Positions 32,401-38,400 of a stretch of DNA of 64,000 nucleotides are shown here, one piece after another. The position numbers and the translations under genes were made by a program. Below the pieces are notes generated by a model. It was given only the letters and a program-made list of their open reading frames with translations, was not told where the DNA came from and made no database searches. Every line of letters starts with the position of its first letter. Position 1 is the stretch's first letter. Source of the DNA: Owenia fusiformis (lineage: Eukaryota > Annelida > Polychaeta > Sabellida > Oweniidae); NCBI GenBank assembly GCA_903813345.2, contig CAIIXF020000005.1:2604001-2668000 (forward strand), given 5' to 3'.

Positions 32401-35400
32401 GCCACTGAATTAGAAAAAAGGTTTGAAGTGATAGAACTCAGGTTAATATTAATAACAGCTTTTGGGATTCTCTACTGGAGTTTTGAATAATTTATCAATT
32501 TATTCTTAAAGTTGTTACAGACCCTCTCAATAAAGAAAATACATATAGAAAATATACTTATGAGCTCATAATCATGCAGATCTATTTTGACTGTTTCATG
32601 TCAGTGGGTTAGGGTTTACCCATGTGGAACCACACTGACCAAAGGAGGAGATCAGAACTACATAGTGTATAATAACTACTTCACAAGCAAAACAGTTATT
32701 AGATCTTGCTGGGAACCAATCTAGGACATAAATAGCATTAAAACCACTGAATTGGTTTGAGATTTGACATTTTTATGATTTCTACCAAGATTTAGTGAGT
32801 TTATAAGAAACTATCTGCACAAAAGAAAGGGAATTATAACTGATCGTGTGTATTGATGTACAATGAGTCTTACTAGCTGAAAACATGGGAAAAATTCAAA
32901 TATTTTGCTGTGGATTTCAAAATGAGTAGAGATATTTGTTTAATACTTTAAGATTGACTGGATTTTAGAAATATTTTGGATTTAGAATGACTTGTAAATA
33001 TCGGAAGATTTTACATTCGGCAAAGTAACACCTTTTTCAAACCAAATGCGAAAGTTCATTCAGTCCATGAAACAAGAACATAAAATTATCTGAGTTTTGG
33101 AGTTTATCAGAATTCCTTCATAGGAAACACTTTGGAACACATAGGAAATAGTTGATAAAAACTGCAAAATACATAGAACTCTATACTTTTGGAGGCTGGA
33201 TACAATATACTTTTGACATTTATAGATGGAAAGCTGCTGGTGAAATTCATCAACAGGAATCTCATAAAACCAATATATGAGCCACTAAGTGCTTGCTGAA
33301 ATCAGACAGTTTACCAAAATATGGAATCACCTTCCAAGTTATAAATAACCCAAGATTTCTCTATAAAGGTTAGTCATATTGAAGTGAAACTGAATCAGGG
33401 CTCGCATCTGGATCCTTAATCAAAGTGCTCTGGCTCAGATTATACATTTGCTAGTGTTTTATTTTCTTCCCAAAATATTCTTCTTCAAACATTCAACAAA
33501 CATGGTGAATTCATCCCCCAGATGCTGTGTTTATCTCACAGGGGATCAAATACCTGTGTGAACTAGTAAAGGTAATCTTAATTGGGCGATAACTGTTAAT
33601 TAGGTAACGTTAAGTCCTGGAATCAGACTCTATGGGACTAGATCTAAGGTCTAGTAGAGGCATACAAAGGGAGATAAAGGATACAGCTAAAACTGAATTA
33701 TAGGGGCATACAACACTTCTCCATTAAACATCAAAAGAAATATTCCTTGAGTTGCTATATCAGGAAGATCTCTAGTAACAGGCCTATATAAAAGACAAGT
33801 AAACTACATGTAGGAATTTAAAAGGTTTTTCAATATGTAGCTTTAACATATCATTTGAGTACATAATCAGATAGAGTTTTGAAGATGGCAGACTATTACC
33901 TGAAGCGGAATCTACCTGGGACCAAGTTGGAGTATATGTCCCTGTCACGGCCAGATGTCACAACAGATTATTTTCTTTCTCGCGTTAAACCATCCAAAAC
34001 ACCAGCCCGCTTGAGTTACGACAAACCATATACCGGGGTGGGTACTTCATCTTATCCCATGACCTTTCCAGGACCATCGGGTCATGATAAATCGTATGTT
34101 AGCAGGTTCGCTCAAGATCCGCCATATTCCCCGAAATCAAAATGGGAGAAATCTGAGCAAAGTGATAAGGCATTTTCGACATCAAGTTTTGATAAGCCCT
34201 ACAGAAGTGAAAGGTTCTACAGGGAGAAATCTCATCATAGTGCATCAAGCTATGATCAAACCTACCCTGGTGCTAAGAGCCGTGAGAAATCTTACATTAT
34301 CAGTATAGAAAAAGACCAGCCTTACAGAGGAACAACTAGTCATGACAAATCATACCCTGAAAGAGATACAAAGGAAAAGTCTTCATATTCAAGTAGAGAT
34401 GATGAAAGGCCATATTCTGCCAAGGGTAGTGGTGATAATACCTTCAGAAGCAGTGACATTAGACCCTACTCCTCAACTATTAGTTATGATAAGACCTTCT
34501 CAAATATAAGCAGAGAACTAGATAGACCATTCTCAGCCCCATCTAGTCAGGATAAAGCATATTCAATCATAGATGATAGACCTTACTCCTCAATCACTAG
34601 TCATGATACAGTCTACAAAATCAGGGAAGATAGGCCCTGTACAATGGTTGCCCAATATGTCCCTACTAGCTCAAGAAGCTATAGAAGCACTGATAAACCT
34701 CCTAGCGGAAAAAGCCATGCTTCCTCTATAGATTCCCCATACACAGGGCATTATGTTAGCAAAAGAAAGTTAAAATCTACAGCCTATAAATATGAGAAGT
34801 ACAGACAGTCGAAAAGCCTCTCAAGGGATCAAGCTGGTCGCGTCCCATTAGAAACAAGCAAAAGTTTAGATAGTTCTCAGGTGCACTGGGAGAAATACCT
34901 AGGTGTTAGTGATAAACACGATGATGCAAGTACTAAACCATCTGGTGCATTGCTAGAACACTCATCTGCCATCTTTGAGAAAGCACCTGAGTTCATATAT
35001 AGTAAATATGACTATTTGAAGCCAGAAAGCACATACTTAATGAATACTCAGAAGTCCAGACAATTTGATGCAGACCCAATTGCATATTTAAATCGCAAGT
35101 CTTCTGTAAGGCTTGCTAGCTTGAAATATGAAACAGCAGTGAAGTCATCGAATGAACCTCAGACTAACAAATCTTCAAGCAACAAACCCTCAAGATTCAA
35201 GAAACAGAAAGAACCGCTTACGCGTAGTATGAGCTTACATAGCAGCGCCTTCTATTCACTTTCGGGAAGTGCTTCTTCTTATACAAAAAGGGAGAAGCTG
35301 ACATCATCCTATAAGGGTTCACTGTCTAGCTACAAACCTACAAAGGATAGATCCATCACTCCAGTCCTAGAGTACCACCATAGACCATACAGAGAGAGTT

Positions 35401-38400
35401 ATAGTCCACCTAAAGATGTCACCACCAGACATAGACCATACCGTGACAGCAATAGTCCCCCAAAGCAAGATATCCTAGGCACCTTGCCAGATGCCCCAAT
35501 TGCACGTGATGTTGACAAGGTTGCCAGGTATAAGAGACGCTTTGAACAGAAAGCTAGGGATCAGCACAAACCACATACTCATAAAGAACAACACTTAGAC
35601 CATGGTGAGAGAGAATCAAGGAAAACAACTAGAGACTTCTTACCTAAGAGAGCCAAGAAGCACAAACACATTGACAAACCGAATGTACAAAAAGATGAGA
35701 AAGCGGATCTAGAAATCAAAACAATAACAACTAAAGAGCCGATGGAGGATGATAGTTTAGAGAGAAAACTCAAGAGCTACAAAGCCCTAAAGGAATCAAA
35801 CTATGAAGCAATGGAAGTTGAAATGATCAGAACAACAAAAGCAACAAGAACTAAGGTCATGTTTGATGATGAAAGCCTTGAAAGAAAACCGTTTGACTTT
35901 AAAGCATTCAGAGAAACCTCAATGGAGGAAATTGAGATCAAATCATACAAGATGTCCAGCATTGAGAGGTTTGAAGATGATAGTCTTGAGAGGAAGCCTG
36001 CCTTTGATTTCAAGGCACTGAAGGATGCACTCCTTAGTGAAGATATGGATGAGATTGGGGTCTTGAATAAGATGGATATGGACAAGGGTTTCCCTTACAT
36101 CATAACAGCAAAGTAAGTATTAAATTAAAAATGTCATTGTATACTAAGTGTGTGTATCTTTTATAGGACAGAGGCATTTTGGCTTTTTAACACAAACGTT
36201 TTTTGGATATAAAACTTGAATATTTTCATATTTCAGATGATATAACTGATTTTTTCTTAATAGATACATTTAATATGAGATGTGACAAGAATTGATAAAT
36301 GAAGAGAATTTTCTGAGAAACTATTTTTTAAATGATCTTTATTATTATTTCCATTATACATTGTATGAGCTTATGGAACCTACATGTATGTGGACAAGGT
36401 TTCAGTTTAATGTAGGTATAATGATGATTAGTTGAACATGTACTTACATGTAACTATATATAAATACAGTATACCTGTCATGCAAACATCCCTGTTTGAC
36501 ACCTTCAAAAACTTATTCTCATCAATACCATCTTGGCTTAAAGGCAAATATCTTTATTTAGTTAAAACAAAACAATACATAATACATAATCAACATTTAT
36601 ATATGATTCCCTCTTCTTATTTCTTAATGATTTAGATAGTAAAATTACTTATTTCGACCTTGAGTGATCAAAGAATTTTAAGAAGCTAAAAAATATCATG
36701 CTATACAGTGAATGGATATGGTTGACTTTTTGCAGTGGCTATATCCTAGAGTATACTGCTTCGAGTCTTATTGTATGGTAATGGATCAAAAAGTAATCAC
36801 ACTTCTAATCAATTCTTTTAAACAGGATGAAGTCTGGAAATGAATGTTCTGTTGGCATTCACCATTAACTTGGCCTTTTATTAGCCTTGCCAATAGAATA
36901 CATACATTCATAATTTTATCTTCTAGGCAATGAAACATAGACAGTTTTATCATATACCAAGTTGAAAATATGTTGAAAGATATTTTCTATATATTTTATT
37001 AACTAATTATACATTTTATTTACATTGATATCTGGTTGTTGATACATTTATTAGAACTGTGTGGCTTGTACTTTTGCCATTCCTCGTATTTATTTAAAGT
37101 TTTCTTTTGAATTTAGGGACCTTTTGGAATCTGGAATTGGTTTTATATAGTTCAGATGATCTATGTTTTTTTTTGTAAATTGTATTACCTTTTTTCAATT
37201 GTAATCTCTTGAGGCTGTTTCTCCATGCTTCTTCATTGTTGTTGAAACAATTGTTTCATCATTCTTTTCATACCTATTAACTTATATCAAATTAACTTCT
37301 ATTCTATAAGAACACCTAAATGTTGTCCAAAAGTAATAAATGAAGGACCACAGGTGTTTCACAGTTATAAAGGATTGGCTGTCTTTCAATTGAGAATAGG
37401 TATTGTTATATAGGTAGACTATATAGTAAACAATTAGCAACAAGCTTGTTGTCTTCTATAACTACGTATAAAGAACAATTAGCTTGTCGCCTTATTGTTG
37501 TTTACTTGTTGTCATTGAATATCATTAGCGGATTGTTATCTTGTATATGAGACTCTACAATCGTATCATCAATATATTGTGTCATACCTTCAGTGAACTG
37601 TTGTGAAGATTTGGGAATTATGAAAGCGTGGGGTTTAGAAGAATCAATTGCTCTGCTTGATTAGCATTACAGCAGCCATGTTAGAATAAACAGTAATTTA
37701 GGATATGTCATCTTTGTATGACTGTAGCATTGCCATGGAAATTGGCGTGCTTACGAGAGAGATGATGGAAAGTTAATTGACAACAAATCACATGGAAACA
37801 CCAGTTGAAGTATTGTAATAATAGTGTCATTACAGTTTTCAGATTACAAGTAAGAAATGTACAAGTAAGTACAAGATACCAAAATTAGTACTTTATAAAC
37901 TGATCTCCATATGAGGGATAATATAAGGTTTGGATGAGAAGGGATCACATCTCATTGAACACGCAAATCACAACTGATTACTGTTGGTGTTTATATACAG
38001 TGACACTAGATTTATCAATTATTTAGAATCAATAATCTCCATGAGAAAATCAGTAGCAGGAGCTACGAGGTCTTTGAGGTTACTATAACATAGCTCGAGA
38101 TGAAAGTGCTGGAGACGGGAGCTCATTACAAGCACAAAACACTCAAAGAAGTCGTCAATGAATCCTAAATCTTAACAAGGAATAATATTTATTGAATAGA
38201 GCTGATAAGGCCTAAGAACCAGCCTCTCTTGAAAACTGCTTTTATGTAGTGGAATATTTTATACAGGTTGCAGGAAGTGAAAATATTTGATTTCAATATA
38301 TGAAGGAAATCAATTTTAAAAAGGTGATTTCTGACATAATTTCACCCAAATGACACGACTTTATCATTGATTTTTTCTGATGATATGACTTTTATGCTGG

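Follow-up and report, generated by a model that had tools for sequence, protein, structure and literature searches.

A long open reading frame in intron 2 of the Owenia fusiformis SRPK gene is a candidate alternative first coding exon

Members of the SRPK kinase family can differ in their N-termini within one species. For Drosophila SRPK79D, alternative promoters are reported to yield N-termini that carry targeting information (PMC2759580). An earlier first-pass annotation of the locus described here also mentions SRPK isoforms with differing N-termini that affect localisation. A 171-residue insertion is described for human SRPK1a (PMC6624410). We analysed a 64,000-nucleotide (nt) stretch of DNA from the annelid Owenia fusiformis (contig CAIIXF020000005.1, hereafter the window), which contains an SRPK gene on the + strand. 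Inside the 40.4-kb intron 2 of this gene, and on the same strand, resides a long open reading frame (ORF), for which the first-pass annotation had proposed the role of an alternative first exon providing the kinase with a 743-residue N-terminal extension. Judging from sequence features, we consider that 33885-36112 serves SRPK as an alternative first coding exon somewhat more probably than all other explanations taken together.

The region 33885-36112 is plainly a coding stretch, which confirms the long ORF. Read alone from the ATG at 33885 (context GAAGATGG), it encodes 743 amino acids (aa) and terminates at the TAA at 36114-36116, and the frame is already open at 33867, upstream of the ATG. 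At the local intron stop frequency of 0.067 per triplet, 749 stop-free codons have a chance of about 3e-23. Codon log-odds were computed with a model from SRPK compared against intron triplets: the read frame scores 0.19 bits per codon, compared with 0.02 and 0.08 for the two others. It also ranks first in six of the seven windows of 100 codons, the exception being the window at 34485. Both the translation and the codon signal bear out the earlier observation of 742 open codons running from this ATG to AA/GTAAGT (the slash marks the exon boundary).

The proposed exon is 2228 nt long, which gives phase 2, and ends in AAA/GTAAGT. The apparent stop is part of the donor itself, as the first-pass annotation had pointed out, with TAA at 36114-36116 lying within the GTAAGT at 36113-36118. 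SRPK exon 2 and the candidate exon both end in phase 2, matching exon 3, whose acceptor at 48913 (tatttttag/GTCT, 5.1 bits) is a good one. Joined to 48913, the candidate exon keeps an open frame through 1532 residues, so the fit in phase claimed earlier holds. The donor and acceptor matrices, as well as the poly(A) and TATA criteria used below, derive from general consensus knowledge and were not trained on this species. With the same matrix as applied to 36113, seven of the 13 SRPK donors score at least 8 bits. The + strand has 3847 stop triplets outside coding sequence, and 28 of them (0.73%) lie inside a donor of the strength of 36113.

A TATA-like motif, TATATAAAAG, sits 100 nt before the ATG and would suit a first exon of SRPK and a separate gene alike. 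It occurs as a single copy in the window, counting both strands; shuffled windows contain 0.67 copies on average, and the motif turns up in 48 of 100 of them. The shorter TATAAAA is present in 14 copies on the + strand, corresponding to 0.03 per 150 nt. Both the TATA and the poly(A) criteria were chosen after viewing the sequence.

We scanned the 12.8-kb gap between the candidate exon and 48913 for further exons, and no exon candidate there stands above background. The best candidate in the gap scores 10.4 and the best phase-compatible one 10.2. In the control stretch 48800-60700, non-exon candidates reach 10.9. Candidates scoring at least 13.0 overlap 11 of the 12 SRPK exons there, seven of them with both ends exact. 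This control is optimistic because these exons also served to train the codon model; when each is left out in turn, coding scores lie between -9.3 and 42.6 bits. A Pfam search of 30 of the 32 + strand ORFs of at least 50 residues in the gap, the other two of which run into exon 3, found none at the curated cut-off. The gap also holds repeats on the + strand, at 41135-41521 and about 42900-43310, comprising a recurring SIDVPWYCC frame and a unit of about 124 nt.

To see how SRPKs of other animals begin, we scored 7985 candidates of 843-2681 residues, of which 900 were SRPK-like and 120 were listed. At least 250 residues precede the kinase motif in 49 of the 120 listed SRPKs, and at least 700 in 15; these counts are not population frequencies because the procedure favours long proteins. 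As regards size, the earlier remark that extensions as large and of this repeat type are not known for SRPK fails for predicted proteins. The Owenia extension is nonetheless unrelated to the long N-termini found. Further domains are listed for P0087 and P0088 among the 15 and for P0005, P0006, P0023, P0034 and P0118 among the 49, and these seven entries may be gene-model fusions. The 49 long N-termini fall into 18 groups with no between-group BLAST similarity at an expectation value (E) of 1e-6. One group of ten spans decapod and amphipod proteins from several species, which indicates that at least that extension is conserved. Among the listed SRPKs, which come from many animals, mutually unrelated long N-termini precede one conserved acidic segment and the kinase. 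In the literature searched, the titles and abstract openings among the matches listed contained nothing on very long SRPK N-termini.

One pair of listed SRPKs comes from the crayfish Procambarus clarkii. Proteins P0014 and P0009 have identical kinase parts (598/598 residues), and their N-termini, 1107 and 433 residues long, become identical only from 33 residues ahead of the GYHP motif. This junction falls in the acidic segment, and so does the start of SRPK exon 3 in the window, 41 residues ahead of GYHP.

The 743-residue protein itself is basic, with an isoelectric point of 9.4, and contains 15% Ser, 11% Lys and 7% Tyr. Its first third carries a degenerate D-K/R-x-Y/F repeat, and one segment is present in three copies near the end of the extension; a search of 33000-37000 found no tandem repeat, and the repeats seen are degenerate. 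The extension is not an arginine/serine-rich (RS) domain, a possibility we rejected because its 17 RS/SR dipeptides are close to the 16.2 (standard deviation 3.6) expected after shuffling. Considered as well was an exon of a muscle Ig-type protein, an impression raised by the DDSLERKP repeats, and nothing was found in its support. AlphaFold2 run without an alignment, on the single sequence, returned a mean predicted local distance difference test score of 38, in which only the helices 539-560 and 623-653 stand out; the extension is accordingly predicted to be mostly disordered with few helices. A Pfam search of the extension found no family, and a PDB sequence search gave as its best match ribosomal protein L31 (E 0.068), taken as chance. 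Searching 5.8 billion proteins with words from the first 500 residues retrieved only the ORF's own entry. With the low-complexity filter on, the extension matched none of the 49 long SRPK N-termini at E of 1 or below.

As an alternative first exon, the ORF would operate as follows. A TATA-type promoter of its own within intron 2 would drive transcription from a start about 30 nt past the motif at 33785. Splicing would then link the donor at 36113 to the acceptor at 48913. The 36-residue basic start of the canonical protein would be replaced by a 742-residue basic, largely disordered extension, resulting in a 1532-residue kinase, which might be sent to a different cellular place or partner, as reported for the SRPK79D isoforms of Drosophila. 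If the donor were left unused, the frame would end at its own TAA, and the poly(A)-like site downstream could release a free 743-residue protein. It is conceivable, although unlikely, that one exon serves two products, the fused kinase where U1 takes the GTAAGT and the free protein where the TAA and the adjacent poly(A) site prevail. Since SRPK controls splicing factors, the kinase could then regulate the choice between its own two products. Use of the exon in both ways would reconcile a first exon of SRPK with a separate gene.

The splice to SRPK is plausible because of the strand, the phase, the strength of the donor, the lack of an above-background exon in the gap and the long predicted SRPK N-termini elsewhere, and the first-pass proposal thereby has partial support. 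Several observations weigh against it. The protein database contains an entry, P0001, that is exactly the 743-residue ORF, a single member on one 42.46-Mb contig. This entry probably reflects a deposited annotation as a separate gene, because other long-contig entries among the SRPK matches are annotated NCBI proteins. When the 1532-residue chimera (extension, residues 1-743) was searched, none of 7145 candidates of 843-2681 residues matched the extension at E of 10 or below. Comparison of the extension with the N-terminal parts of at least 60 residues in 116 of the 120 listed SRPKs gave best E values of 0.41 with phmmer and 0.91 with BLAST. Four within-species pairs were compared, and the crayfish pair alone has its junction in the acidic segment. 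In the Macrobrachium pair the junction lies one residue ahead of the kinase, and in the barnacle and Nymphon pairs the whole N-terminus is common to both members. For SRPK79D, rescue of one phenotype is reported to have been independent of the N-terminus present (PMC2759580).

The scans themselves add further points on this side. For the SRPK exon at 50272-50380, the overlapping candidate scored just 8.7, a value that non-exons also reach, and a stricter exon scan recovered six of the 12 control exons. A short exon candidate of 15.8 bits at 11769-11812 (+), in intron 2 upstream of the ORF, is unexplained and beats all candidates in the gap. Moreover, 33764 (2.8 bits) or 33871 (0.1 bits) could serve as acceptors before the ORF. 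No acceptor in 33300-33900 exceeds 3 bits, and the best in 33600-33885 scores 2.8. This absence of a strong acceptor before the ATG only leans towards a first exon, because five of the 13 SRPK acceptors also score below 3 bits.

The strongest competing explanation, possible though less probable, is a compact intronless gene nested in SRPK intron 2 on the same strand, with its TATA motif at 33785, ATG at 33885, TAA at 36114 and a poly(A) site about 20-40 nt further on. Its product would be a free, basic and disordered lineage-specific protein of 743 residues, and the overlap of stop and GTAAGT would be due to chance. The database speaks for this explanation, as it has an entry for exactly this protein on its own, whereas no fused form turned up among its proteins of 843-2681 residues. 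So does the sequence directly 3' of the TAA, where two overlapping ATTAAA are followed by a GT-rich run. GTGTGTG occurs within about 50 nt downstream of only these two of the 114 AATAAA/ATTAAA hexamers on the + strand; TGTGT follows nine of the 114, including the one at 61066, 409 nt past the SRPK stop. A hexamer at most 20 nt from the stop and then TGTGT was seen at 12 of 3986 other stop triplets (0.30%). The TATA-like motif is compatible with a separate gene and with SRPK. On the other hand, the stop would have to fall by chance within a donor of a strength rare among stop triplets, and in the exact phase required by SRPK exon 3. A 3' untranslated region of about 20-40 nt is unusually short and also counts against a separate gene. 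In sum, the coincidence at the donor and the habits of the SRPK family favour a first exon of SRPK, whereas the case for a separate gene draws on the poly(A)-like site and the database entries. A separate gene would be an orphan of an ordinary kind, lying within an intron.

We regard as quite unlikely that the ORF is the first coding exon of another + strand multi-exon gene, with further exons that are small or weak or lie beyond the window. Any acceptor of phase 2 would suit such a donor, making the agreement with SRPK alone about a one-in-three match, and the exon scan can miss exons, as it did at 50272-50380 and in half of the stricter control. Against such a gene, 36119-48912 offers no phase-compatible candidate above 10.2, the gap ORFs searched with Pfam reached no cut-off, and exons beyond SRPK would require an interleaved gene. 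A pseudogene or chance open frame is very improbable: no homologue was found and most of the length lacks confident structure in the single-sequence prediction, but the stop-free length and the frame-specific codon signal exclude chance, and the protein contains internal repeats.

The host gene product is SRPK, as identified from its sequence. The gene has 14 coding exons and a canonical protein of 826 residues (Table 1). The first-pass annotation had taken 8396-8489 for exon 1; it is in fact exon 2, preceded by an exon 1 at 8291-8306, and the two jointly encode a start found in several listed SRPKs. The 36 residues preceding exon 3 are basic. Pfam Pkinase matches the protein in two stretches, and the exons 53866-54086, 55970-56177 and 56494-57207 separate the two kinase halves as a long spacer. 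With the spacer removed, the kinase (444 aa) matches the structures of SRPK2 (2x7g, E 4.5e-198) and SRPK1 (1wak, E 5.3e-192). Among the 25 best kinase matches shown, all from proteins of at least 843 residues, the top bit score belongs to Mytilus P0015 (79.9% identity), and the greatest identity, 80.8%, to P0004 of the nemertean Tubulanus.

Table 1. Coordinates of the SRPK exons and of the features around the candidate exon, in window positions
Feature	Position	Strand	Evidence
SRPK exon 1 (MSSRK)	8291..8306	+	Gene-model translation
SRPK exon 2, donor phase 2	8396..8489	+	Gene model; donor scoring
TATATAAAAG, candidate TATA box of own promoter	33785..33794	+	Motif search
Candidate coding exon from ATG to donor (742 codons plus 2 nt)	33885..36112	+	ORF translation, codon scoring
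5' splice site GTAAGT, its TAA the in-frame stop	36113..36118	+	Donor score 8.0 bits
Sequence resembling a poly(A) site, with ATTAAA at 36119 and 36124, GTGTGTGT at 36148-36155 and a following TCTTTT	36119..36162	+	Motif search
SRPK exon 3 (SSGGSRRED...), proposed shared acceptor exon	48913..49034	+	Gene model, acceptor score, exon scan
SRPK exons 4-14, with the spacer-split kinase; TAA stop at 60655-60657	50272..60657	+	Gene model, Pfam, structure match

Other features were observed in and near the SRPK gene. An intron contains, at 58394-58951 on the - strand, a 186-aa ORF that appears by eye to be a piece of a mobile element and shows no Pfam family at E of 0.01 or below. Several diverged repeats around "FKMAAIF" occupy 51740-52680 (+), also in an intron; ATCCCACCGAACG and TGTTCGGTGGGAT lie near opposite ends of this block, which is possibly a non-coding mobile element. 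Upstream of SRPK, a single-exon ORF of 282 aa at 3074-3919 (+) matches Ig_3 in two stretches (E 1.8e-15) and has a start that, judged by eye, resembles a signal peptide.

If the proposed splice is true, Owenia would add a further case of SRPK genes with long, mutually unrelated N-termini across animal lineages, and the role of N-termini for SRPK would become testable across animals. Human SRPK1a resembles the proposal in being a longer N-terminal SRPK form that arises through alternative splicing, but its description gives an insertion of 171 residues (PMC6624410), as opposed to the proposed replacement by 742 in Owenia. The Drosophila SRPK79D isoforms PB/PE and PC/PF come closer in organisation: as in the proposal, one gene with two promoters is reported to place non-overlapping N-termini on one kinase (PMC2759580). 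These isoforms total 749-869 residues, whereas the Owenia extension, the splicing of which is proposed, measures 742 residues alone. A long extension also occurs in another lophotrochozoan, the nemertean Tubulanus polymorphus, where the 2072-residue SRPK LOC141902911 (P0004) shares the acidic segment and carries 1489 residues ahead of the kinase motif. Over much of its length this extension is rich in charged residues, and it is not significantly similar to that of Owenia (best BLAST E 0.91). The crayfish proteins P0014 and P0009 are predictions, and their N-termini have no significant similarity to the extension either; their arrangement is like the one proposed for Owenia, with an identical kinase part and different long N-termini that meet at one residue in the acidic segment.

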